From Chloroflexota bacterium (GTDB lineage: Bacteria; Chloroflexota; Anaerolineae; UBA4142), in NCBI GenBank assembly GCA_023380675.1, contig JAMCRS010000077.1, positions 1 to 9,382 on the forward strand: a stretch of DNA of 9,382 bases, in the 5' to 3' direction. Shown piece by piece: positions 1 to 9,382 of the stretch. How positions within the stretch are numbered: the first letter of the stretch is position 1; every line of letters begins with the position of its first letter. The notes beneath the pieces were generated by a model. That model made no database searches, was not told where the DNA came from, and saw only the letters and a list, made by a program, of their open reading frames with translations. A program made the translations under genes and the position numbers.

Positions 1-1
1 G

Positions 2-226
2 GACTATTCCGAGGCGACGGCGGCGCGGGTGGATGCGGATGTGCAGCAGCTCCTGGAGGACCAGCACGAGGTCGTCACCCGCTTGCTCAATCGGGAGCGC
101 GACAAGTTGGACAAGCTGGTCGACGCGCTCTTGCAGGAAGAGACGGTCGAACGGAAGGAGATCGAGCGTCTCCTGGGGTCGCGTCCTCTACCGGAAGAAC
201 CCGTCGTCAAGCCCGAGCTCGCGTAA
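2..226 (+). CDS. ftsH: FtsH (ATP-dependent zinc metalloprotease), C-terminal fragment
   Basis: The reading frame is open from the left edge and ends at TAA 224-226, giving the last 74 residues of a protein whose start lies outside the window. It begins DYSEATAARVDADVQQLLED and continues as a charged helical tail with RDKLDKLVDALLQEETV and EIERLLG. This is the pattern that closes the M41 peptidase domain of FtsH: YSE-TA--ID-EV, then a helix ending in D-LA-ALLE-ETL and EI--LL. FtsH is a hexameric, membrane-anchored AAA+ protease that degrades misfolded membrane proteins and some regulators. The AAA+ module and HEXXH zinc site are not visible. A short Pro/Glu-rich tail follows the conserved part, as is common in the family. 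It faces the next gene convergently, so no functional link to the minus-strand operon is implied. The family call rests only on the tail, but that match is characteristic. Confidence 0.8.
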   Translation, partial: DYSEATAARVDADVQQLLEDQHEVVTRLLNRERDKLDKLVDALLQEETVERKEIERLLGSRPLPEEPVVKPELA

Positions 227-242
227 GTAAAGGCAGAAGTCA

Positions 243-302
243 GAAGGATGAAGGTGGAAGAAGACCCACTCCTCTTTGGGTTTTCTTCCACCTTCATCCT
301 TC
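243..302. repeat. Near-perfect 26-bp inverted repeat between convergent genes (possible bidirectional terminator)
   Basis: The arms at 243-268 and 277-302 pair over 26 bp around an 8-nt loop. The single mismatch (G264 against T281) would be a G-U wobble in + strand RNA. The 5' arm is almost all purine (GAAGGATGAAGGTGGAAGAA). The stem lies between the ends of ftsH and the MFS gene, where it could stop transcription from both sides, but neither strand has a clear T-run after it. The 3' arm runs on into further TCATCC(T/C)T copies up to about 318, so the stem is part of a low-complexity purine/pyrimidine repeat tract. The rest of the gap to 415 shows only a short palindrome (ACGTCGACGT near 373) and no gene. 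Confidence 0.75.
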
Positions 303-415
303 ATCCCTCATCCTTCAGTAAGCAGCTGGGTGCGCAGCCTCGCTTTCATCAACACCACCATGTGCGGAATCCACGTCGACGTCGTGAAATAGATCGTCTT
401 CAGAGTTGCTGCTTG

Positions 416-1666
416 TTACGCGTTCTCGTCCTGATAGTTCCTCAGAAACGGTACCTTCCACGCCATGAGCGCGACGATGACGACAGTCGCCACGCCGCCG
501 ACGACGACCGAGATCGGCGCGCCGACCGCTGCGGCGAGCAGCCCGGCCTCCAAATCGCCGAGCTGCGGTCCTCCCGAGATGAAAATCGCATTCACCCCGG
601 ACATCCGGCCCCGCATCTGGTCAGGCGTCCAAATCTGCCGAATCGTGTTGCGCAGAATCGTGCTCACCGTATCGCCGGCGCCGACGATCATGAGCAGGAC
701 GAACGAAAGCGCGAATTGCTGCGAAATGCCGTACAGCGCGGTCGCCGCTCCGTACACGGCCACCGCGCCCAGCAAGAGGGCGCCTTGCTTTTTGAGGTGG
801 CTCCTGAGCGACAAGCCAACTCCCGACCCGACCGCGCCGATCGACTCCGCCGAATAGAGCATCCCCATCCCTTCCGGTCCGACATGGAGAATGTCCCGCG
901 CGAAGATTGGCAAAAGGGCGGTCGCGGAGGAGAAAAAGGTGGCAAAGAAATCGAGCACCATCGTGGAATAGAGGATCTCGGAGCGGCGGACAAAGCGGAT
1001 GCCTTCCCAGAGGGAGGAGAGCGAGAGACGGACGGCGCCGAGATTTTCCTGCGTCGGCAGCTTGATCAAGAGGAGCGCCAGGATCACGGCGAGAAACGAA
1101 GCGGCATTGATCCAGTAGACGGCGGCCACGCCCTTCCACGCGATGACGAATCCGGCGAGCGCGGGGCCGACGATCGACCCCGCCTGCTGCATGAGATTCG
1201 TGAGGCTCATGGCGTTCGCGAGGTGCTCTTTGGGGACGAGATTGGGGGGAAGCGCTTTGCGCACCGGGGTATCGAACGCGGTCGCCGCCGCGGTGAGCGC
1301 CGAGAGCAGGTAAATCACCCCGACCGAGGCCCAGCCCACGTTCGTCAACAGGCCGAGCGCCGCGGCAAAGACCAGCATCGAGCTCTGAGTAAAGATCATG
1401 AGCCGCCGGCGGTCGTGAGCATCGGCAAAGACGCCGCCCACAAGCGAAAACGCGACGAGGGGGACGACGCGGGCGAGCCCCGTGAGGCCGAGCGCCAGGG
1501 CGGAGCCGGTCAGGATGTAGATATGCCAGTTGATCGCGACCAACTGCATCTGGGTGCCCGCCGTCGAGACGAGCTGGCCCAGCCAGATGAGGCGAAAGTC
1601 GCGATATTGCAGCGCGGCAAGCGGCGCCGCGGACGGGACAGTCGCCGTCGAAGATGTCGAGCTCAA
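416..1666 (-). CDS. MFS transporter, MFS_3 / EntS-like exporter family
   Basis: A 416-residue polytopic membrane protein of usual family length, with about 10-12 hydrophobic segments. The N-terminal part matches the MFS_3 (enterobactin exporter EntS-like) pattern: LQYRDFRLIWLGQLVSTAGT at 19-38, then the loop 2-3 motif GGVFADAHDRRRLM at 77-90, the 'G-x-x-x-D-x-x-x-R-R' signature of major facilitators. Members are usually proton-driven exporters of siderophores, drugs or metabolites; substrate cannot be read from sequence. It is the last gene of the minus-strand series, 105 nt after the ThDP enzyme, and may be co-transcribed or have its own promoter in that repeat-bearing spacer. The start is TTG at 1666. 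An in-frame TAG at 1679-1681 excludes a longer protein, and no ATG or GTG occurs before the first conserved residues. The RBS is weak (GGAAA just upstream). It may export a product of the neighbouring oxidoreductase operon, which is inference from position only. Confidence 0.85.
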   Translation of the reverse strand: MSSTSSTATVPSAAPLAALQYRDFRLIWLGQLVSTAGTQMQLVAINWHIYILTGSALALGLTGLARVVPLVAFSLVGGVFADAHDRRRLMIFTQSSMLVFAAALGLLTNVGWASVGVIYLLSALTAAATAFDTPVRKALPPNLVPKEHLANAMSLTNLMQQAGSIVGPALAGFVIAWKGVAAVYWINAASFLAVILALLLIKLPTQENLGAVRLSLSSLWEGIRFVRRSEILYSTMVLDFFATFFSSATALLPIFARDILHVGPEGMGMLYSAESIGAVGSGVGLSLRSHLKKQGALLLGAVAVYGAATALYGISQQFALSFVLLMIVGAGDTVSTILRNTIRQIWTPDQMRGRMSGVNAIFISGGPQLGDLEAGLLAAAVGAPISVVVGGVATVVIVALMAWKVPFLRNYQDENA

Positions 1667-1764
1667 GGTTTCCGGTTTCTAGTTCAAGATAAAATTTCGG
1701 ATTCAAGGTTCAAGTCGATTTCCGCAGAGAGCCCTGGTCTTGCTGAAACCTTGAACCTCGAACT
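1663..1764. repeat. TTCAAG-type repeat cluster and hairpin in the spacer between MFS and ThDP enzyme genes
   Basis: The spacer carries several copies of a TTCAAG(G)TT-like unit in both orientations, near 1664, 1682, 1702, 1708 and inverted at 1746-1764. Arms 1702-1714 and 1750-1762 pair 12 of 13 bases around a 35-nt loop. Read on the minus strand, the hairpin follows the ThDP gene stop and is trailed by ATTTTAT near 1690, so it could weaken or end transcription before the MFS gene. It looks like a low-complexity dispersed repeat of the same general kind as that at 243-302 but with a different unit. Confidence 0.5.
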
Positions 1765-1771
1765 TGCTATC

Positions 1772-3511
1772 TCAGCGCCGCTCGGTTACCGCGTCGACGA
1801 GCGCGGGCTTGCCTTCCGTTTCCACAAAGCGAATCGCCCGTGCGAGCGCGGGGCCCAAGGCATCGGCGCGCATGATCGGACCCTCGGCGTACCAGCCGAG
1901 CGAGCGCGCGAGCCCGGCAAAGTCGGGCGGCGGGCCGTCGATCTCGGTGCCGACGGGCACATTCTCACGCGTCCGCCCGCGCCAACCCGCGATCCGGTAT
2001 TGATGGTCCCACGAATTGTTATAGGCCCGGTTGTTGTACATCACGACCAGCAGCGGGATCCGGTTCTTGCTCGCGGTCCAGAGCGCCCCCACATCATACA
2101 TCAAGTCGCCGTCCGGCTGCAAGTCCACCACGAGTTTACCCGTTCCCCGGTAGGCGAGAGCGACGCCGATGGCGATGCCAATCTGCGTCCCGGTCCCTTG
2201 ATGTTTGCCGGCGTGCCGGTAGGGTTGATCGAAATCCCAGAGCTTGCGCGACCAATCCAGCACCGTGTTTCCGGTCAAGACCCAATCTTTGCCTTGGAGC
2301 GCCCGGCCGACCTCGAGGACCATGTGCGGGATGGCCATCGGCGAGGCGTCCGGATTCGCCTTGGCTTCCTCGAGCCAGCGGGCGCGCTGGGTGTGATGTT
2401 TTTCGCGCCACATGTGCATCCGCGCTGCGCGGTTGTTCACGCTCGACTCGGGCGACGCCTCCGCTGCACGCGCCTTGCACGCGGCGACGATCTCGGGGAG
2501 CGCGACGTAGGTGTCCGCGAGGATCGAGAGATCGACCTGGGCAAAGCGCATCGAGTTCTGCGCCCAACTACTCGTTTCGAGGTCGTCCACGCCGATGGAA
2601 ATGACGCGGCAGTCCTTCGGAATGATCTTGCCGCCGGTCGGACGTTTGTCGCTCGTCAACTCGGCGAGTGTGCCGTAGAGGTCGCGCACGTCGAGCGAGA
2701 GGACCAGGTCGGCGTCGGTCAAGACCTTGGAGCCGAGTGTGAAGAGAGGATGGGTATTCGGGAAATTGAGCCGCCCGTCCAGGTCGAGCACCGGCGCGGC
2801 GAGAAATTCCGCGAGCTCGACGAGCGTCTGCACGCGCTCGTGATTGCGGCCGACATTCTCTGCCATGATCACCGGGCGCTGGGCCTTTAAAAGCTCCGGG
2901 ACGAGCGCGGCGAGAGCGGCGGGCTCCATCGCGAGGCGCGAGTGCAGTCCGCCCTGCGCGGGGTTGGGCAGCTCAACCGGCGCGGGGAGCTCGTCTTCCT
3001 GGAAGCTCACGTCGTAGCAGATGTACACGGGGCCCGTCGGCTCGGTGCGGGCGATACGGTAACCGCGGGCAAAGCCGTGAATCGCGCCGTCCGCATCAAA
3101 CGGCTGATCATCCCATTTCACAATATCGCGGATCAAATCGCCCTGGACGACAGCGGTGTGGTCCCAGTCGGTGCGCCGGCGCCGTCCCGCAGCCATCGGG
3201 CCGGAGGCGCCGAGAATCATCATCGGCGCGCGGTCGACATACGCGTAATAGATGCCCATCGGCGCATGCATGAGGCCGACGAGATTGTGGAGAAAGACCG
3301 CCATCGGCTTGTTGGTCGCTTTGGCATAGCCGTGCGCCAGGCCAATGGCAATCTTTTCGTGCTGGCATTCGACGATGGGAGGGCGGTTGCCCGCGTAATT
3401 CAAGATCGAGTCATGGGTTCCCCGGAAACTCGCCCCGGGATTGAAGGCCACATACGGGAAGTCGTAACAATTCAGTAGGTCCGCAATCAGGTCCGAGCCA
3501 TACTTGGCCAT
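1772..3511 (-). CDS. Thiamine-diphosphate-dependent enzyme, acetolactate synthase / 2-oxoacid decarboxylase superfamily
   Basis: A 579-residue protein with the three-domain layout of ThDP enzymes such as acetolactate synthase and benzoylformate decarboxylase. The N-terminal PYR domain (about 1-170) carries the catalytic Glu that activates the cofactor, in ECQHEKIAIGLAHGYAKAT (Glu52), then a conserved loop GLMHAPMGIYYAYVDRAP. A central Rossmann-like domain spans about 195-345. The C-terminal PP domain (about 395-575) holds the Mg-diphosphate motif LQPDGDLMY...VVMYNN (466-494). The usual GDG reads PDG here; from memory this also occurs in a poorly characterised 'thiamine pyrophosphate-requiring protein' group. 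Such enzymes cleave or form C-C bonds next to a keto group, so decarboxylation of a 2-oxoacid to an aldehyde is plausible, but lyase or carboligase activity is possible. The ATG at 3511 is preceded by GGAG at 8-nt spacing, and starts 5 nt after the MoaD-like gene's stop, implying coupling. The frame is open upstream to 3664, but that part overlaps the MoaD-like gene and reads as arginine-rich noise. Confidence 0.88.
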   Translation of the reverse strand: MAKYGSDLIADLLNCYDFPYVAFNPGASFRGTHDSILNYAGNRPPIVECQHEKIAIGLAHGYAKATNKPMAVFLHNLVGLMHAPMGIYYAYVDRAPMMILGASGPMAAGRRRRTDWDHTAVVQGDLIRDIVKWDDQPFDADGAIHGFARGYRIARTEPTGPVYICYDVSFQEDELPAPVELPNPAQGGLHSRLAMEPAALAALVPELLKAQRPVIMAENVGRNHERVQTLVELAEFLAAPVLDLDGRLNFPNTHPLFTLGSKVLTDADLVLSLDVRDLYGTLAELTSDKRPTGGKIIPKDCRVISIGVDDLETSSWAQNSMRFAQVDLSILADTYVALPEIVAACKARAAEASPESSVNNRAARMHMWREKHHTQRARWLEEAKANPDASPMAIPHMVLEVGRALQGKDWVLTGNTVLDWSRKLWDFDQPYRHAGKHQGTGTQIGIAIGVALAYRGTGKLVVDLQPDGDLMYDVGALWTASKNRIPLLVVMYNNRAYNNSWDHQYRIAGWRGRTRENVPVGTEIDGPPPDFAGLARSLGWYAEGPIMRADALGPALARAIRFVETEGKPALVDAVTERR

Positions 3512-3516
3512 GGCAT

Positions 3517-3816
3517 TCACTCCAACATCCTTTCCACTGCTCCCCCTCCCAGCGGCGGCAGCAGGCTCAGCTCGTCGCCGTCTTGCAGAAGGAGGTCGCC
3601 GCTCGCTTCCTCGACGACCTTGCCGTTGACGGCGATGACGACGTGGGTGCTGCCGTGGCGCCACTGATAATCGGCCGACGTACCGAGAATTCCCGGATAA
3701 TCGTTTTCCAGCTGCGCGAGGGCCTGGCCGAGTGTGCGCGACGGCGGGAGCGGGAGAAGGAGTTCGCGGCGGCCGGCGAGGTCGCGCAGCGCGCCGCTCA
3801 GCTTGACCTTAAGCAT
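3517..3816 (-). CDS. MoaD/ThiS-family ubiquitin-like sulfur carrier with a tail beyond the GG motif
   Basis: A 99-residue beta-grasp protein. It opens MLKVKLSGALRDLAG, matching MoaD-type proteins (V-LF-A-LRELAG), continues with TLGQALAQLENDYPG, THVVIAVNGKVVEE and LLLQDGDELSLLPPLGGG, and so has every landmark of the family. MoaD is the small subunit of molybdopterin synthase and donates sulfur from a C-terminal Gly-Gly thiocarboxylate to make the dithiolene of Mo/W pterin. Its place directly after an AOR gene suggests a dedicated role in making or loading that enzyme's tungstopterin. Oddly, Gly90-92 are not terminal: AVERMLE follows, and canonical carriers need a free GG end for adenylation. 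The start ATG (3816) lies inside the last codons of the AOR gene (8-nt overlap) and the stop is 5 nt before the next start, so it is translated within the operon. The extra codons also encode the ribosome-binding GGAG of the next gene. Confidence 0.85.
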   Translation of the reverse strand: MLKVKLSGALRDLAGRRELLLPLPPSRTLGQALAQLENDYPGILGTSADYQWRHGSTHVVIAVNGKVVEEASGDLLLQDGDELSLLPPLGGGAVERMLE

Positions 3817-5593
3817 GCACAAAACCCAATCCCAGGCGGTCGAGCGTGTCCGGGGTCGGACAGCCCTCGTCGTCACAGCCGCGTGCGGCGTACCACTCGG
3901 CGCGGTCGTGGAGAAAATCCTCGCGCGAGTACGCGGCGCCCGCCTGGGGACCCTGCGTGAGTGCGTCCTCATGGACGCGCGCGGGGAGGACATCGTCGCG
4001 CTCGGGCACCATGCCTTCGCGGATGTTGTAGGCGCGCGCCATGATGAGCAGACGTTCGGCGATCGGATCCCACTGCTCGGGGGCATAGTCCCAGCCGGTC
4101 GCGGAAGAAAGCAGCCCCAGATAATCGGATGGCGCGAGGAGGGCCCGGTGCCACGAGCAGCACGCGAGCGAGTCCGCCCACACCCGTGCGTTCTGCTCGG
4201 TCGCGTCGAGCCCGTAGTGATGGCAGCCGCCGCGGTCCCCCACCGCATACTGCAAAGCGCGGTCGGGGTGCGCCTGCGGGGCGTAGCCGGCGAAGGACAG
4301 CCCTTTGGCGTGCATCGCAAAACGTTCCGAGCCCCGGCCGATTTTCGCCGCGGCCTCGCGGACGCCGTCCGCGAGCAGATCCCCGATCCCTTCGCGGCGC
4401 GCGATCTTGAACCACAGTGTCTCGAGCGCCTTGGCATTGCCCCAGGTCAATTCCAGTCCATCGCAGTCCTGCCGGGTCAGCAGGCCGCGCTCGTAGCACT
4501 CGATCGCAAATCCGGCGATATTGCCGAGCGTGCTATTGTCAAAACCGAGATCGTCGCCGAGCGCGCTCAAATATTGCGCGCCCGCATAGTCCGTGATGAG
4601 ACAGCCGGGACCGATCGTGCCGAACGAGTCAAAATCCGGGTTGGTCAAGGTGCCGGCGTGCTCGCCCTCCCGCAGCACTCCCGTTTGCATACAGGCGATC
4701 GGACAGTTGTAGCAGCTGCGCGACCGCACCTTGCTGCGCCGTTCATACTGCAGTCCGCTGATCTTGTCGACCTCGGTCCAGTGCGCCTCGCGATAGTTGC
4801 GGACGTCTAATTCGGAAATGTCCGAGTGCGCGTCGTGGCTGATGGTCGAGCCCCAACGGCTGAGGGTGTAGCCGCGCCGCTTGGTCGTCTTGGCATCGCG
4901 CAGTTTGGCGTACACCCGGGCGTAGCGGTCCGCGTACTCTTCCCGACGGGCGAGCGGAATGGGACCGTGCCCGCGCACGACAATCGCCTTGAGCCGCTTG
5001 GAGCCCATCAGCGTCCCCGGCCCGCCGCGCGCCGCGGCGCGGAAATATTCTTGTGCGATGCTTGCATAGCGCACGAGATTTTCGCCCGCCGGCCCGATGC
5101 ACATGCTGCGGCGCCGCGGATCGCCCAGTTGGGTCTTGAGCAGCACCTCGGTCTCCATCACCCCCTTGCCCCACAGGAAATCCGCGGGGCGGAGCGTCAC
5201 CTCTTGGTCCTCAATCGAGAGGTAGACGGGGCTCGCTGCCCGGCCGGTGATAACCACGCCGTCATAGCCGGCCGTTTTTAGTTCGGTACCCCACTGCGAG
5301 CCAGTGAGCGCGTGCCCGAGGGTGATGCCCGTGTTCGGGGATTTAAAGACGACGGCCGTATGGGCGGAGCCGGGTGCAATACCGGTGATGGGGCCGGTGA
5401 GGAACATGAGCGGACTCTCGGGCGCGAGCGGATCAGTCCCCGCGGGCAGCCACTGCCACAAGAGGCGCGCGCCCAGACCGCGGCCCCCGATATAGTCCTG
5501 CGCAAACGCGAGATGCTCATCGCCGGTCCGCACCCGGCCGGTCGTCAGGTCCACATGCAGCAGCTTGCCCGTATAACCGCCCTGGGGATTCAT
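3809..5593 (-). CDS. Aldehyde:ferredoxin oxidoreductase family, tungsten/molybdenum bis-pterin enzyme
   Basis: A 594-residue protein of typical AOR length. It starts GGYTGKLLHVDLTTGRV (5-21), followed by YIGGRGLGARLL (34-45), LTGPITGIAPGSAHTAVVFK (65-84), IGPAGENLVRYASIA (166-180) and ARGGPGTLMGSKRLKAIVVR (188-207), the hallmarks of the pterin-binding N-terminal domain. The [4Fe-4S] ligands are visible as C294-x2-C297-x3-C301 plus a distal Cys at 478/479 in WADSLACCSW, which also matches the D-x-x-x-x-C pterin-contact motif. AOR enzymes oxidise aldehydes to carboxylates (or run in reverse) and pass electrons to ferredoxin. Some subfamilies act on formaldehyde, glyceraldehyde-3-phosphate or benzoyl-CoA; the sequence alone does not settle which applies. 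ATG 5593 is chosen because it overlaps the ferredoxin stop as ATGA and has AAGGAG at 5-nt spacing. An upstream in-frame ATG at 5623 lies deeper inside the ferredoxin gene and lacks family support. The gene overlaps the following MoaD-like gene by 8 nt. Confidence 0.92.
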   Translation of the reverse strand: MNPQGGYTGKLLHVDLTTGRVRTGDEHLAFAQDYIGGRGLGARLLWQWLPAGTDPLAPESPLMFLTGPITGIAPGSAHTAVVFKSPNTGITLGHALTGSQWGTELKTAGYDGVVITGRAASPVYLSIEDQEVTLRPADFLWGKGVMETEVLLKTQLGDPRRRSMCIGPAGENLVRYASIAQEYFRAAARGGPGTLMGSKRLKAIVVRGHGPIPLARREEYADRYARVYAKLRDAKTTKRRGYTLSRWGSTISHDAHSDISELDVRNYREAHWTEVDKISGLQYERRSKVRSRSCYNCPIACMQTGVLREGEHAGTLTNPDFDSFGTIGPGCLITDYAGAQYLSALGDDLGFDNSTLGNIAGFAIECYERGLLTRQDCDGLELTWGNAKALETLWFKIARREGIGDLLADGVREAAAKIGRGSERFAMHAKGLSFAGYAPQAHPDRALQYAVGDRGGCHHYGLDATEQNARVWADSLACCSWHRALLAPSDYLGLLSSATGWDYAPEQWDPIAERLLIMARAYNIREGMVPERDDVLPARVHEDALTQGPQAGAAYSREDFLHDRAEWYAARGCDDEGCPTPDTLDRLGLGFVHA

Positions 5594-6117
5594 AGCTTCT
5601 CCTTGGCCGGGTAATAGATGCACGCAAGCGACCGGGCGATTTCCTCTGGCGGCGCCATCATGTAATGGCTCGGGCTAAAGGCGCTTCCCGGCACCCACTG
5701 GAGACAGCCGGTGGGACACGCGGCGACGCAACGCGGGCTGCCGTCGCAGAGGTCGCACTGCATCGGGAGGTTGGTTGAAGGGTGAGGGGTAATGGACCCG
5801 GTATGGGGGCAGGCGGTGTAGCAAGCCTGGCATTGAATGCACGCGCCGGCGTCCAGTCGCACGACCTCGGCGGCCGCATCGAAGGCGAGCGCGTCAGTCG
5901 GGCAGGCGGCGATACATTGGCGCTCGAAACAGCGATGGCAGATCACCGGAATATCAAGGGGACCGGGGTAGAACTGCTCCACGCGAATGCGGGAAGCTTC
6001 GGGCCAGACGGTACCCTCGTGAAACAACGAACAAGCGGTCTCGCACAGGCGGCACCCGGTGCACGCCGCGTAGTTGATCTCGATGCTCGCGCGCCTCTGA
6101 CCAGCCTGTTTGCTCAT
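5590..6117 (-). CDS. Ferredoxin-like protein with four [4Fe-4S] clusters, electron-transfer partner of the AOR enzyme
   Basis: A 175-residue soluble protein with sixteen cluster Cys in four motifs: C19-x2-C22-x2-C25-x3-C29, C60-x2-C63-x4-C68-x3-C72, C93-x2-C96-x2-C99-x3-C103 and C121-x2-C124-x5-C130-x3-C134. Two further Cys (138, 166) lie outside. The layout resembles the HycB/DmsB/AorA class of polyferredoxin subunits that carry electrons to and from molybdo- or tungsto-enzymes. There is no twin-arginine or other signal peptide, so it should act in the cytoplasm. It is the first gene of the minus-strand operon, overlaps the AOR start by 4 nt (ATGA), and almost certainly receives AOR electrons and hands them to a partner outside the window. 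ATG 6117 has AAAGGG just upstream. The C-terminal tail (about 145-175) carries no cluster motif. Confidence 0.9.
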   Translation of the reverse strand: MSKQAGQRRASIEINYAACTGCRLCETACSLFHEGTVWPEASRIRVEQFYPGPLDIPVICHRCFERQCIAACPTDALAFDAAAEVVRLDAGACIQCQACYTACPHTGSITPHPSTNLPMQCDLCDGSPRCVAACPTGCLQWVPGSAFSPSHYMMAPPEEIARSLACIYYPAKEKL

Positions 6118-6203
6118 GGCACCCTTTCATCGGATATGATGCGTAGCGCGGCGCAGAACCGCGGGGTATTCTTCGCCCCTGGCAATTTGGACGTTAATCA
6201 AAG

Positions 6204-6231
6204 AGTATACAGCAAGGATTATGACCGTCAA
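6204..6231 (-). promoter_or_regulatory. Sigma70-type promoter for the ferredoxin-AOR operon
   Basis: On the minus strand TTGACG (complement of 6226-6231) stands 16 nt before TATACT (complement of 6204-6209), matching the -35/-10 consensus at 5 of 6 positions each. The predicted start near 6197 would give a leader of about 80 nt before the ferredoxin ATG. In such a GC-rich sequence this match is unlikely to be accidental, but it is untested. I saw no convincing riboswitch fold in the short leader. Confidence 0.6.
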
Positions 6232-6332
6232 TACCCAGACGGGTAGTCATGGCAGCTCCTTACCCGGCAAGGGACGCGGAGGTTGCATTCCCAACTACCC
6301 GTACGAGTGCGGACGCGCTAGTCGAAAGCATG

Positions 6333-6372
6333 TTGACTTGGACCCGGATTTGTATAATTATAGTACATTATA
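6333..6372 (+). promoter_or_regulatory. AT-rich promoter/operator island upstream of the substrate-binding protein gene
   Basis: TTGACT (6333-6338) is followed by TATAAT (6353-6358), but the spacer is only 14 nt. TAATTA (6355-6360) would give 16 nt with a poorer -10. The -10 region is the perfect palindrome TATAATTATA (6353-6362) inside a TGTA-N9-TACA inverted pair (6351-6367), and a further TACATTATA follows. On the minus strand two TATAAT boxes occur here (6357-6362 and 6367-6372) without a good -35. The cluster could be a + strand promoter overlapped by a repressor site. The leader to the ATG at 6499 would be about 130 nt. Confidence 0.4.
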
Positions 6373-6498
6373 GGTCGGCGGCCGCCCAAGACTGGCGGTG
6401 CCTCTGCGACTTGGCTCGTGCGGCATGGTTCGATGGGTTTTTTCCGTCTGTGACGTCTGCAGATAAGCGAGAAACCAAAACTCTTTGAAGGAGGCCCC

Positions 6499-7569
6499 AT
6501 GTCTCGCACCACGCTTGCCGTCGTTCTATTGATTGTCGCGCTCGTGGCGATCGCCTGCGCGCCCGCACCCGCCGCGGTGCCGACCGCCGCCCCGCCCGCT
6601 GGCACAACGGCTCCGACGACGGCGCCCGCCGCGTCGACCGCCGCTCCCCTGGTCAAGGTCAATTCCTCCTGGTCCATGACGAATGCCGACCCCGCGCCGC
6701 TGTGGGTCGCTCAGGACGTCGGCTTTTTCAAGCAGAACGGACTGGACGTTTCGCTCATCTTTATCGACGGCGGCACCAAGCATGCCCAGGCGCTGATTGC
6801 CAAGAGCGTCGACATCGGCATCAGCTCGGCTGCTCCGGTGGTGAGCGCGGATGCGGGGGGCGCGGACCTAGAACTCATCGCCGGGTTGGTCAACCGGATC
6901 AATTATGACTTTATCGTCCGCCCGGGCATCAAGTCAGGGGCAGATTTGAAGGGCGGCAAAGTCGCCATCAGCGGCCCTTCCGGCTCCTCGACGACGGCCA
7001 TGCGCATCGCGCTCAAGCAGCTTTTTAACCTCGACCCGGACAAGGACGTCGTGATGATTACCATCGGGAACGAGACCGAACGCGAGGCCGCGCTCCTCTC
7101 GGGGCAGATCGACGCCACCATCGTCAATCCGGACACGTCGATCAAGGCGAAGAAGGACGGCTTGGTCGTGCTCGAAACCCTATGGGGTAAGCCGATCGAT
7201 TACGAGCACACCGGCGTTGCGACGACCCGGTCTTTCGCGGAAAAGAACCCGCAGGTGGTGACCGCCTACCTCAAGAGCATCATCCAGGCGATCGGCTATA
7301 TGAAGGACCCGTCGAACAAGGCAAATGTCGAAAAGATCATTGCCAAGTATTTGAAATCGAACGATACGGAAATGATCGACCAGAGCTATACGCGCATGAG
7401 CCAGACGATCCTGCAATGCGCGCCCTACGTCACAATGGGCGGAATGAAGACGGTCATCAGCGAGAGCAAAACGGCGGTGAAAGCGGGGCTCACTCCCGAG
7501 AAAGCCTCCGATAATTCTTACCTGAAGGCTCTCGACGACAGCGGATTCATCAAAGCCAACTGCAAGTAG
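6499..7569 (+). CDS. ABC transporter substrate-binding lipoprotein, NMT1/THI5-SsuA-like family
   Basis: A 356-residue secreted lipoprotein. The signal peptide is a short basic start, a hydrophobic core (TLAVVLLIVALVAIA) and Cys20 as the lipid attachment site. A 30-residue Ala/Pro/Thr linker (21-50) follows, typical of membrane-tethered lipoproteins. The mature domain has the NMT1/SsuA-type periplasmic-binding fold order: WVAQDVGFFKQNGLDV (69-84), the loop GGTKHAQALIAKSVDIGISS (91-110), ADLKGGKVAISGPSGSST (148-165), and ERE-AALLSGQIDATIVNPD (194-212). Relatives bind sulfonates, nitrate, pyrimidine precursors or aromatic compounds; the ligand is not predictable here. No permease or ATPase gene follows in the window, so it either pairs with components elsewhere or is an orphan receptor. 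It is read away from the AOR operon and probably together with the next gene. ATG 6499 follows AAGGAGG. Its last codons are echoed by the direct repeat at 7664-7680. Confidence 0.87.
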   Translation: MSRTTLAVVLLIVALVAIACAPAPAAVPTAAPPAGTTAPTTAPAASTAAPLVKVNSSWSMTNADPAPLWVAQDVGFFKQNGLDVSLIFIDGGTKHAQALIAKSVDIGISSAAPVVSADAGGADLELIAGLVNRINYDFIVRPGIKSGADLKGGKVAISGPSGSSTTAMRIALKQLFNLDPDKDVVMITIGNETEREAALLSGQIDATIVNPDTSIKAKKDGLVVLETLWGKPIDYEHTGVATTRSFAEKNPQVVTAYLKSIIQAIGYMKDPSNKANVEKIIAKYLKSNDTEMIDQSYTRMSQTILQCAPYVTMGGMKTVISESKTAVKAGLTPEKASDNSYLKALDDSGFIKANCK

Positions 7570-7680
7570 GATAAGACGGCGCCCGCAGAGTCCGCGGGTA
7601 CGGCTTCGCCCTTTGAAAGATAAAGGACGAAGCCTCGCAATGACAAATTGCCGCCAAGTTGTGAAAGCCAACGGCAAGTA
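7552..7680. mobile_element. Palindromic (REP/MITE-like) insertion flanked by a 17-nt direct repeat
   Basis: The segment 7569-7663 is bounded by AAAGCCAACTGCAAGTA (7552-7568, the last codons of the lipoprotein gene) and AAAGCCAACGGCAAGTA (7664-7680), identical at 16 of 17 positions. Both copies reach into a stop codon (TAG 7567-7569; TAA 7679-7681). The insert contains two hairpins: CCCGC/GCGGG (7582-7598), and GGCTTCG/CGAAGCC (7602-7608 and 7628-7634) with an inner CCTTT/AAAGG stem. Its minus strand reads TGTCATTGCGAGGCTTCG (7629-7646), which from memory resembles the start of a GTCATTGCGAG-type dispersed palindromic repeat known from many bacteria. With the insert and one repeat copy removed, the lipoprotein stop would lie about 10 nt from the next start. 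It encodes no transposase, so any movement would need help in trans. A partly deleted second lipoprotein gene is the alternative explanation. Confidence 0.5.
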
Positions 7681-7691
7681 AAGAGGGAATA

Positions 7692-8780
7692 ATGCTCTTT
7701 TTGACGAACGAGCACGTGCAAGCGGTGCTCGATATGCCTGCCTGCCTGCAAGCGCTCGAGGACGCTTATGCCGAGCTCGCCGAGGCGCACGCGGCCTATC
7801 GCCCGCGGATGGACATGTACGTCCCCCAAGAGCCGCACTATTATCGCTGGGGGACGATGGAAGGCGTCTCCAGAAAGCAGGGCATTTTCGCGATTCGAAT
7901 GAAATCGGATATGCTTGTCTGGAGCGGGGGAACCGAAGAAAAGTACTGCCTCGAACCGGGGACCTTTTGCGGTCTCATCTTCCTCGTAAGCGTCCGGAAC
8001 GCCGAGCCGCTCGCGATCATGAACGACGGCTATGTGCAGCATATGCGGGTGGGCGCGGCGGCCGGCCTGGGCGTCAAGTATCTGGCGCGGCAAAACTCGC
8101 GGGTCCTCGCGATGATCGGTTCCGGCGGCATGGCGCGCACGTACGCGGAAGCGATCTGCGCGGTCCGCCCGATCGAACGCATCCGGGTCTACAGCCCGAC
8201 GCGCGCGAACCGCGAAGCTTTTGCCGTCGAAATGCAAGCGCGACTCAACGTGCCGGTCGAAGCGATGGAATCGGCAGAGCAAGCGGTGCGCGGCGCGGAC
8301 GTCGTCGCGCTGACGACCGATTCGCTCGGGCCGGTCATCAAGCCGGAATGGCTCGAGCCGGGGATGCATGTCACCAACGTCCGCTCGAACGAAGCCGGCC
8401 CCGACGTTTTTGCTCGCGCGGATGTGGTCTTCCGCCTCGGCTTCGCGACCTTTATGTTCGACCCGCCGCCTCCGGGCACGGTGTGCGGCTCGGATGGAAT
8501 CTTTGGCTACTGGGCCGGAACGCCTGAGGAAGCGAAACGAATCCCCGCCGCGCCGCCTGGCCGCAAGATCGATAGCGCCAAGACGCCGACGCTCCCGGAC
8601 CTGATCGCAGGTAAATGTGTAGGGCGGACGGAGGACCGTCAGATCACCTTTCTGAACAATCAGGGGACGCAGGGCCTGCAGTTCGCCGCCGTCGCCGGAA
8701 AAGCGTACGAGCTGGCGAAGGCGAAAGGACTGGGGCACTCGCTCCCGCTCGAGTGGTTCGTGCAAAAGATACGGGATTGA
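7692..8780 (+). CDS. Ornithine cyclodeaminase / mu-crystallin family NAD(P)-dependent protein
   Basis: A 362-residue protein of normal family length. Family landmarks are the N-terminal helix VLDMPACLQALEDAYAELA (12-30), the substrate-binding RMK at 69-71, the central HMRVGAAAGLGVKYLA (117-132, the family's 'TR-aAAsalA'), and the nucleotide-binding loop IGSGGMA (142-148) of a Rossmann domain. It ends with GRTEDRQITFLNNQGTQGLQ (311-330), matching the family's C-terminal 'GR-s--eiT-F-s-G'. Members include ornithine cyclodeaminase, alanine dehydrogenase, ketimine reductase and opine-type enzymes. In cyclodeaminases a catalytic Asp lies in a 'GgD-PGK-E' segment; here the corresponding stretch is NVRSNEAGPDVF (229-240), with Asn/Glu at that place. 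A cyclodeaminase reaction is therefore unlikely, and a dehydrogenase or imine-reductase role is more plausible. GAGGG lies just upstream of ATG 7692. It is probably co-transcribed with the lipoprotein gene across the hairpin-bearing spacer. Confidence 0.87.
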   Translation: MLFLTNEHVQAVLDMPACLQALEDAYAELAEAHAAYRPRMDMYVPQEPHYYRWGTMEGVSRKQGIFAIRMKSDMLVWSGGTEEKYCLEPGTFCGLIFLVSVRNAEPLAIMNDGYVQHMRVGAAAGLGVKYLARQNSRVLAMIGSGGMARTYAEAICAVRPIERIRVYSPTRANREAFAVEMQARLNVPVEAMESAEQAVRGADVVALTTDSLGPVIKPEWLEPGMHVTNVRSNEAGPDVFARADVVFRLGFATFMFDPPPPGTVCGSDGIFGYWAGTPEEAKRIPAAPPGRKIDSAKTPTLPDLIAGKCVGRTEDRQITFLNNQGTQGLQFAAVAGKAYELAKAKGLGHSLPLEWFVQKIRD

Positions 8781-8801
8781 AAGCGGGGCTGGAAGTGGAT
8801 T

Positions 8802-8825
8802 GCGCCCGTGGAGACCACGGGGCGC
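8802..8825 (+). terminator. GC-rich hairpin 22 nt after the cyclodeaminase-family gene (terminator candidate)
   Basis: GCGCCCGTGG (8802-8811) pairs with CCACGGGGCGC (8815-8825) around an AGA loop, with one bulged G, giving a 10-bp stem. It directly follows the stop at 8780. There is no T-run, so intrinsic termination is uncertain; it may also be a member of the palindromic repeats that fill the rest of this edge. Confidence 0.45.
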
Positions 8826-8858
8826 GAAACGGACAAGCGGATAGGAACGGATGTTTAG

Positions 8859-8905
8859 GCGGCTCTCGGGGTAGGGACCCGGGAGCCGCTGCGCGTTTGC
8901 GCGCA
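8859..8905. repeat. Two abutting GC-rich hairpins
   Basis: GCGGCTCTCGGG (8859-8870) pairs with CCCGGGAGCCGC (8878-8889) over 12 bp including one U-G wobble, with a 7-nt loop. The next base starts a second hairpin, TGCGCG/CGCGCA (8890-8895 and 8900-8905) with a TTTG loop. Two stems set side by side without coding sequence resemble a REP-type doublet. They could also act as the terminator of the preceding + strand genes. Confidence 0.6.
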
Positions 8906-8927
8906 ATCGCCGCGCCAACTCTGCTCG

Positions 8928-9149
8928 GTGCATGACTATAAAGCGATGCATCAATCCTTCCGGAAACGGGCGCCCAAGCCGGCCTTCCTAGCCCTACTGG
9001 GGAACCAGCCCCCGACCTCCTCAAGCCCGATTGAGGCATTCCCGGACCCGGTCGATTTCGTCCGCCGGGTGCTCGGGGTCGAGCCGGTCGGCTATCAAGC
9101 AGGGCGCCCCTATGGGCGCCCCTACGTGCGTACCGACCGGGGGGACCCA
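8928..9149 (+). pseudogene. Possible N-terminal remnant of a phage terminase large subunit
   Basis: This frame encodes FPDPVDFVRRVLGVEPVGYQ at about residues 39-58. That pattern (DP--FVR-VLG-EP--YQ) resembles the start of some large terminase subunits, where the Q precedes the ATPase. After YQ the frame runs into the short repeat GGGCGCCCCTA (9103-9123) and then, still in frame, into the transposase remnant at 9150. No Walker A or B motif is present, so if real it is only a fragment. The match is short and from memory, and a chance open frame in GC-rich DNA is quite possible. Confidence 0.25.
9102..9126. repeat. Tandem GGGCGCCCCTA repeat upstream of the RAYT remnant
   Basis: GGGCGCCCCTA occurs twice, starting at 9103 and 9115, separated by one base; each copy contains the palindrome GGGCGCCC. 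The complement reads TAGGGGCGCCC, a motif I recall as common in REP hairpins next to RAYT genes in Chloroflexota and cyanobacterial genomes. Its position 24 nt before the transposase start codon fits that association. Confidence 0.45.
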
Positions 9150-9230
9150 ATGAAACGGGATCCCGACAAGCATCACCGCCGATGCATCCGTCTGCGCGGA
9201 TACGATTACACGCAGGCGGGCGCGTGTTGA
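9150..9230 (+). pseudogene. REP-associated tyrosine transposase (RAYT, IS200/Y1 family), truncated N-terminus
   Basis: ATG 9150 opens a 26-residue frame that starts MKRDPDKHHRRCIRLRGYDY and ends TQAGAC before TGA 9228-9230. This is the highly characteristic beginning of RAYT proteins (KHHRRSIRLRGYDYTQAGAYFVTICT). RAYTs are single-strand, HUH-type transposases that act on REP palindromes. Here the similarity stops after QAGA, exactly where AYFVTI should follow, so the HUH motif and the catalytic Tyr are missing and the product cannot be active. The following sequence in all frames shows only palindromes, not the rest of the gene, which points to deletion rather than a frameshift. A G-rich run (GGGGGG) a few bases upstream could serve as its ribosome-binding site. 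The fragment explains why the flanks are packed with REP-like hairpins. Confidence 0.75.
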
Positions 9231-9238
9231 AGGATAAA

Positions 9239-9258
9239 CCCCGCTAGGATGCGCGGGG
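9239..9258. repeat. Hairpin directly after the RAYT remnant
   Basis: CCCCGC (9239-9244) pairs with GCGGGG (9253-9258) around an 8-nt loop, 8 nt after the truncated transposase stop. It belongs with the REP-like palindromes that continue to the right edge. Confidence 0.5.
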
Positions 9259-9290
9259 CAGGTGATGAGGGTCGCTGGACCTCGCGATCC

Positions 9291-9374
9291 TCCGCAGAGT
9301 CCGCGGAGTCTGCGGACCGCAGACCCCCGCAGGGGTCGCGGGGTCTAGCGACCCGCGGGATCCAAGATCCCGCG
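9291..9374. repeat. Chain of five overlapping palindromes (REP/BIME-like array)
   Basis: Five stems follow in an overlapping chain: TCCGCAGA/TCTGCGGA (9291-9316), the perfect 17-nt palindrome GTCTGCGGACCGCAGAC (9308-9324), GACCCC/GGGGTC (9322-9337), GGGTCGC/GCGACCC (9333-9354) and CGCGGGATC/GATCCCGCG (9354-9374). In each of the first three joins one arm overlaps an arm of the next, so these folds compete; the last two stems share only one base. Short direct repeats also occur (CGCGATCC at 9283 and 9371, GGGTCGC at 9269 and 9333). The array runs to the window edge and may continue. There is no spacer-repeat periodicity as in CRISPR. Confidence 0.7.
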
Positions 9375-9382
9375 ATCCCACG

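Follow-up and report, generated by a model that had tools for sequence, protein, structure and literature searches.

The sequence considered here is contig JAMCRS010000077.1 (positions 1 to 9,382, forward strand) of the Chloroflexota bacterium assembly GCA_023380675.1 (Anaerolineae; UBA4142); this whole 9,382-nt stretch is called the window, and all coordinates refer to it. An earlier reading of the bare sequence, below called the original prediction, had found on it four co-directional, overlapping or nearly touching genes for a polyferredoxin, an AOR-family tungstoenzyme, a MoaD-like protein and a thiamine diphosphate (ThDP)-dependent enzyme, and had taken them for one system. The open reading frame check confirmed the four genes, their limits and their order on the minus strand, Fd–AOR–MoaD–ThDP; these short names are used below for the genes and their products:

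6117-5590, minus strand: Fd, small electron-transfer subunit (WorS/AorA-like); ATG at 6117, stop at 5590, 175 aa; Fer4 families.
5593-3809, minus strand: AOR, AOR/WOR-family tungstopterin large subunit (WorL); ATG at 5593, stop at 3809, 594 aa; AFOR_N/AFOR_C.
3816-3517, minus strand: MoaD, MoaD/ThiS-like beta-grasp protein; ATG at 3816, stop at 3517, 99 aa; ThiS PF02597.
3511-1772, minus strand: ThDP, ThDP enzyme of the benzoylformate decarboxylase (BFD)/acetolactate synthase superfamily; ATG at 3511 or in-frame GTG at 3520, stop at 1772, 579 aa.

The overlap is 4 bases between Fd and AOR and 8 bases between AOR and MoaD. MoaD and ThDP are spaced by 5 bases, a gap which becomes a 4-base overlap if ThDP starts at the GTG.

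The same set of genes recurs in other genomes. Scanning genomes with an alignment of 27 ThDP homologues yielded 459 loci, of which the best 80 were kept and, together with the window, make up a set of 81. Among these best 80, AOR and MoaD accompany ThDP only in the four loci with the highest ThDP identity to the window, i.e., L001 (100%), L002 (80%), L003 (66%) and L004 (61%), with Fd present in L002–L004. L001, a contig of the Chloroflexi metagenome-assembled genome (MAG) FK_Sedi_B_Bin.16, is 98.8% identical in DNA to the window over 5415 bases and begins inside AOR; as a near-copy, it is not an independent locus, and no Fd is visible there. L002 comes from an Anaerolineales MAG of the same order as L001. 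Since the same genes stand in the same order in three clearly different loci (L002–L004, with 57–82% protein identity to the window for AOR and 61–80% for ThDP), the gene set is not due to chance, which bears out the claim that it is one functional unit. Thus, the predicted gene order is kept in relatives; what is lost in two of them is the close adjacency of ThDP. MoaD and ThDP are direct neighbours in the window, L001 and L004 alone; L002 has a cation-efflux gene between them, and L003 a stretch of some 5 kb which holds a cupin gene and ABC transporter genes. In the other 76 loci (ThDP identity of up to 55%), no AOR, MoaD or Fd was found at the thresholds used, a weak absence, as many of these contigs are short.

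In a tree of 87 ThDP rows built with a quick method, the AOR-linked rows (the window and L001–L004) are set apart from all others by one branch (SH-aLRT 99), and this clade spans records titled Chloroflexi/Anaerolineales, Bacillota and Actinomycetes. A further indication comes from contig sizes: five sizes occur both among the 120 listed ThDP proteins and among the 120 listed for AOR, whereas jittered sizes coincide 0.6 times on average. Two of the five are L002 and L003, and the remaining three (9795, 8832 and 11577 bases) are probably further operon loci.

A wider search, whose counts include the centre genomes, was made around the genomes of the four loci (G001–G004). At E <= 1e-180, ThDP was detected in 10/400 genomes from the phylum of G002 (49–55% identity in nine of the ten), in 1 of 296 genomes of G004's phylum and in 1 of 299 of G003's; at E <= 1e-170, it was detected in 1 of 349 genomes of G004's class. 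AOR at E <= 1e-150 was present in 2/20 genomes in the order of G001 (the same set is obtained from G002), in 1/18 genomes of G004's order and in 1/151 of G003's class, and at E <= 1e-130 in 2/346 genomes of G001's class. Within the genome samples searched, close forms of ThDP and AOR occur only in G001–G004, and no AOR, MoaD or Fd was seen in nine further loci of G002's phylum (L094–L102, 3.7–4.8 kb). Overall, the operon is real, conserved in a small clade, and rare.

On sequence grounds, the most fitting reading of Fd and AOR is a tungsten oxidoreductase of two subunits, WorL plus WorS, of Class II. Fd has 18 Cys, and the sixteen picked out in the original prediction lie within four Cx2Cx(2-5)Cx3C motifs (recognised by eye), corresponding to four [4Fe-4S] clusters. 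Its best match in the PDB is the Fe-S subunit of Pyrococcus WOR5 (6x6u_B, 4.1e-31), followed by 6x1o_B, 8c0z_C (described as an AOR subunit) and 9mqx_E. AOR belongs to the AFOR family by both its domains (AFOR_N, 233 bits, cut-off 29.8; AFOR_C, 316 bits, cut-off 27) and reaches no equivalog cut-off in NCBIfam; in the PDB search, it is about equally close to 1aor (2.2e-94) and to WOR5 (6x6u_A, 1.7e-92). The gene pattern of Class II, as defined in a 2026 survey (PMC13328260), is present, i.e., an adjacent small subunit with four [4Fe-4S] clusters and no WorN: a Pfam scan of seven window proteins revealed no WorN-like gene of the flavin adenine dinucleotide-binding type. Tungsten at the active site of AOR and ferredoxin as the acceptor are predicted.

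The AOR motifs and Fe-S ligands noticed originally are in place (Cys 294/297/301 and the Cys within a DSLACC motif), with a reservation concerning the active site. The survey names Thr243, Glu313, Tyr427 and His448 (PfAOR numbers) for most aldehyde-oxidising members (PMC13328260). The aligned columns of AOR hold Ser249, Asp322, Tyr437 and His458, i.e., two of the four are kept exactly and the other two are conservative changes; these deviations leave the AFOR-family membership of AOR untouched. In a comparison of 121 AOR rows, window included, Asp replaces Glu313 in 16/16 and 38/38 rows of the two closest groups (together 54/54), in 58/61 rows of the next group and in 3/6 of the rest.

This replacement, fixed in the two closest groups, is among the reasons to consider that the substrate of WorLS is a non-aldehyde, e.g., an aliphatic sulfonate, the kind of substrate proposed for WOR5 of Pyrococcus, which is now termed an aliphatic sulfonate oxidoreductase (PMC13328260). 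Fd is nearest to the WorS of that very enzyme, and an SsuA-family binding protein is encoded divergently to the operon. The latter, however, reaches 90 bits with the NCBIfam model SsuA_fam, far under the cut-off of 163, and the NMT1/SsuA family is a broad one; the scan of seven window proteins turned up nothing recognisable as a desulfonation gene, and the sulfoacetaldehyde acetyltransferase models are far under cut-off for ThDP. A non-aldehyde substrate such as a sulfonate is considered highly improbable, and an aldehyde is preferred.

As to the proposed tree check, the ThDP-linked AORs do fall into one clade, but not into one of their own. In a tree of 49 AOR rows (with PfAOR represented by its first matched stretch only), they lie inside a 23-row clade (98/95) which also has Moorella and Desulfitobacterium proteins, the neighbourhoods of its non-ThDP-linked rows not having been seen. 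This mixing suggests that the AOR type may be broader than the ThDP link. WOR5 stands on the side of the ThDP-linked AORs, a placement which is unsure because of its long branch. The genomes of L001, L002, L003 and L004 hold 8, 9, 10 and 16 AOR-family matches, respectively, fragments included, a rich tungstoenzyme set. In each of them, the window AOR has its closest relative, by a wide margin, in the copy next to ThDP (57–98% identity); the other copies do not exceed 47%, and the sole match above 41% is short.

MoaD is a ThiS-family beta-grasp protein (PF02597, 54.3 bits against a cut-off of 22.5) which stays under cut-off with the MoaD/SAMP models. Of its landmarks, the ThiS domain and the Gly-Gly are confirmed; the Gly-Gly is not terminal, since the conserved ...PPLGGG is followed by a seven-residue tail. 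A MoaD identical to that of the window (P0244) is encoded on a contig of 45,878 bases. A comparison of the window protein with homologues P0244–P0258 and L002–L004 found the Gly-Gly invariant in 18/18 aligned sequences and at the exact C-terminus in 5/18; the other 13 carry tails of 1–17 residues past it, mostly dissimilar. Such tails imply either trimming or a non-canonical role, with no use as a thiocarboxylate donor. In a search for a protease acting on the tail, Prok-JAB exceeded its cut-off in G002 and G003, fell short of it in G001 and was missing from G004, with no clear pattern relative to the tail across these genomes (control positive in 8/14).

ThDP displays TPP_enzyme_N (64 bits) and TPP_enzyme_C (65 bits), with TPP_enzyme_M at 28.9 bits, just below the cut-off of 30.4. 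Among the 25 of 45 NCBIfam models listed, none reached its cut-off; PRK08327, for one, gave 226 bits (cut-off 456). The catalytic Glu claimed earlier is Glu52, which, along with His75, Asp467 and Asn494, is invariant in 120/120 aligned rows. The ThDP motif reads PDGD (by eye), where GDG(S/A) is usual. The structural model (pLDDT, i.e., predicted local distance difference test, 85.3) gave fold matches, and its nearest solved structures are benzoylformate decarboxylases, which fill the top of the VIA-align list at about 19–23% identity; benzaldehyde lyase is also near. ThDP shares with BFD the fold, the ThDP motif, the activating Glu and the equivalent of His70 (His75). It differs by the low identity, by Ala27 in place of Ser26 and by its own very large subfamily, and the BFD model NF005485 is far from reached (133.6 vs. 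493 bits, NCBIfam). In the Ser26 column, Ala occupies 24/25 rows of at least 60% identity; below that, the 95 rows divide into 45 with Ser and 50 with Ala. The family comprises 6370 matches at E <= 0.001 among 7998 candidates scored, and no characterised member was found in the analysis.

Three other identities of ThDP were tried and rejected: acetolactate synthase (TIGR00118, 77 vs. 538 bits), sulfoacetaldehyde acetyltransferase (TIGR03457, 70 vs. 676 bits) and glyoxylate carboligase (NF008431, 47 vs. 791 bits). The last enzyme is devoid of the catalytic Glu, whereas Glu52 is invariant in the window family; despite this rejection, the glyoxylate carboligase fold tied with the BFD rows as a match for ThDP.

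Judging by these resemblances, ThDP being a 2-oxoacid decarboxylase performing simple decarboxylation is favoured. Alternatively, it might be a lyase, a 1,2-diketone hydrolase or a 2-hydroxyacyl-CoA (coenzyme A) lyase, which would still yield an aldehyde or semialdehyde for WorLS; as BFD entries lead the VIA-align list and His75, the His70 counterpart, is invariant in 120/120 rows, this appears rather unlikely.

From the gene set, its recurrence, the family memberships and the conserved catalytic residues, all of them observed, we infer every reaction of the following scheme. ThDP would cleave a C–C bond next to a carbonyl and release an aldehyde, most likely converting a 2-oxoacid into aldehyde and CO2. 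WorL would then take over the aldehyde and oxidise it with water to the carboxylate, without CoA, and the two electrons would pass from WorL via WorS, through five [4Fe-4S] clusters, to ferredoxin as the putative acceptor. MoaD might serve as a dedicated sulfur carrier for the WorL pyranopterin, probably once its tail is trimmed. On balance, the four genes seem to constitute one catabolic module of this kind, with aldehyde release by ThDP, oxidation by WorLS and a dedicated MoaD. The 2-oxoacid–aldehyde–carboxylate pathway of the original prediction stands as the leading hypothesis suggested by the sequences; its aldehyde hand-over fits both the AOR family and the nearest ThDP structures (BFD, benzaldehyde lyase).

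The indication from contig sizes given above has its counter-evidence: of nine other ThDP proteins (at least 60% identity, contigs of at least 9 kb), five match no listed-AOR contig size, P0013, P0022 and P0026 on contigs above 130 kb among them, by a method which gives false negatives and misses the window itself. AORs of the 23-row clade on long contigs (e.g., P0139, P0147, P0159) match no contig size among the 120 listed ThDP rows, and foreign genes are inserted between MoaD and ThDP in L002 (cation efflux) and L003 (ABC transporter, cupin). These last two points speak for AOR and ThDP belonging to the same catabolic regulon while acting on different intermediates, AOR being mainly a device of aldehyde detoxification or an acid reductase; detoxification is indeed the assumed role of the Aromatoleum AOR (PMC6365974). 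Against such a separation stand the retention of the AOR set in 5/5 rows of the ThDP clade and, for the window, L001 and L004, the close spacing of the genes; it is deemed quite unlikely. A bolder version of the single-module reading would see a dedicated CoA-free, two-step, ferredoxin-reducing operon in which a ThDP subfamily and an Asp-type WOR clade, both of them new, pass on the aldehyde within one complex. The operon would serve the anaerobic catabolism, along an unrecognised route, of an aromatic 2-oxoacid or of one derived from an amino acid; UbiD, cupin and ligase enzymes would take part in relatives, and gene transfer would have carried it from phylum to phylum. Taken as a whole, this version is doubtful.

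The decarboxylase of phenylalanine degradation in Aromatoleum is a ThDP enzyme. In Aromatoleum aromaticum, this degradation proceeds via phenylpyruvate, AorABC can oxidise phenylacetaldehyde, and a direct ferredoxin-dependent route runs parallel to that of AorABC (PMC9765128). AorABCDE resembles the window system in that a tungsten AOR with a poly-FeS subunit oxidises an aldehyde from an amino-acid-derived 2-oxoacid and MoaD-like genes lie in the aor operon. Unlike in the window, the enzyme has a nicotinamide adenine dinucleotide-linked subunit, AorC, and no decarboxylase gene is named for the operon in the available part of PMC6365974; the window genes are also distant (8c0z_A, 245 bits). The chemistry as such is therefore not novel, and this precedent weakens the claim of a new alternative to 2-oxoacid:ferredoxin oxidoreductases.

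With the Class II WorLS enzymes (Pyrococcus WOR5/PfASOR, Caldicellulosiruptor GOR), the window pair shares the large AFOR subunit, the four-[4Fe-4S] small subunit, ferredoxin as the predicted acceptor and the lack of an adjacent WorN flavoprotein gene. It differs by Asp at Glu313, by the ThDP gene in the operon and by its sequence distance (6x6u_A, 314 bits). The predicted on-site cofactor supply gene exists as MoaD, but is an already known theme of AOR clusters: in the "tungsten cofactor" neighbourhood of Iyer et al. (2006, PMC1779556), MoaD is strictly beside AOR and a 4Fe-4S ferredoxin belongs to the cluster. No ThDP gene is given there in the part available, and no MoeB, MoaE or MoeA was found by Pfam among the window proteins scanned.

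A literature search of titles and abstracts found no description of an AOR–ThDP pairing in one operon, and the main text of PMC13328260 makes no mention of thiamine, ThDP, decarboxylase, chloroflex, acetolactate or MoaD. Within the reach of the searches, what is new is that the two steps are placed in one operon and that both partners come from uncharacterised subfamilies. According to that survey, only 5 of 92 WOR clades hold an enzyme with a defined physiological role (PMC13328260), and the conserved ThDP partner offers a testable substrate source for one WOR group. If the proposal is true, the operon would be a genetically coupled, CoA-free counterpart of the 2-oxoacid:ferredoxin oxidoreductases; it would also be a first lead on a very large ThDP family.

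The four genes are flanked by the following features:

1666-416, minus strand: MFS transporter (MFS_3, Pfam), ~105 bases downstream of ThDP.
6204-6231, minus strand: TTGACG-16-TATACT, a promoter-like site 5' of Fd, recognised by consensus alone.
6333-6361, plus strand: promoter-like site of the opposite direction, pointing to the substrate-binding-protein gene; recognised by consensus alone.
6499-7569, plus strand: NMT1/SsuA-family ABC substrate-binding protein, 356 aa, divergent; NMT1 91 bits.
7692-8780, plus strand: ornithine cyclodeaminase/mu-crystallin-family dehydrogenase (OCD), 362 aa, divergent; OCD_Mu_crystall 137 bits.

The MFS gene is possibly the last gene of the operon; it also lies 3' of ThDP in L001, but that locus is a near-copy. 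The region holds two promoter-like sites against 0.2 expected, one per direction between Fd and the divergent gene. Members of the substrate-binding-protein family (f11) occur in 9/81 loci. The OCD protein scores under the cut-off of every NCBIfam equivalog listed and is a candidate 2-oxoacid supplier; this dehydrogenase and the binding protein would fit an amino-acid-derived 2-oxoacid. A broken OCD-family gene is found 3' of ThDP at L003:9888-10424, the intact relative in the window being divergent to the operon. No tRNAs, and no RNA families at the gathering score, were detected in the window. An 880-aa open frame at 248-2890 (plus strand), antisense to the ThDP and MFS genes, is a frame mirror of high-GC coding DNA and is not judged a gene.

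Neighbour families, delineated by all-against-all BLAST over the 81 loci and named from representatives, provide further hints. HIBADH/GarR-type reductases are found near ThDP in 27/81 loci and aldehyde oxidase/xanthine dehydrogenase-type genes in 10/81; like AOR, members of both families can use aldehydes or semialdehydes, which agrees, circumstantially, with an aldehyde product. Mutual exclusion of the GarR-type reductase and AOR is not significant (0/4 vs. 27/76 loci, Fisher p 0.29, kinship uncorrected). UbiD decarboxylases accompany ThDP in 11/81 loci and a cupin family in 31/81. Upstream in L004 are genes for a PaaK-like ligase (473 of 646 bits) and an IclR regulator, and downstream two cupin genes and one of UbiD type (by family f10). 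In L002, one cupin gene is located upstream, while the downstream side holds two for UbiD. The UbiD, cupin and PaaK-like genes beside the relatives would fit an aromatic 2-oxoacid. A member of the EutA family is located near ThDP in 12/81 loci. The wider ThDP family resides in uncharacterised clusters (L010, L016, L024, L036, L037, L048, L050 and others) with a varying complement of a HIBADH/GarR-like reductase, single-domain cupins, a long cupin protein, an EutA-like protein and ABC or tripartite transporters.

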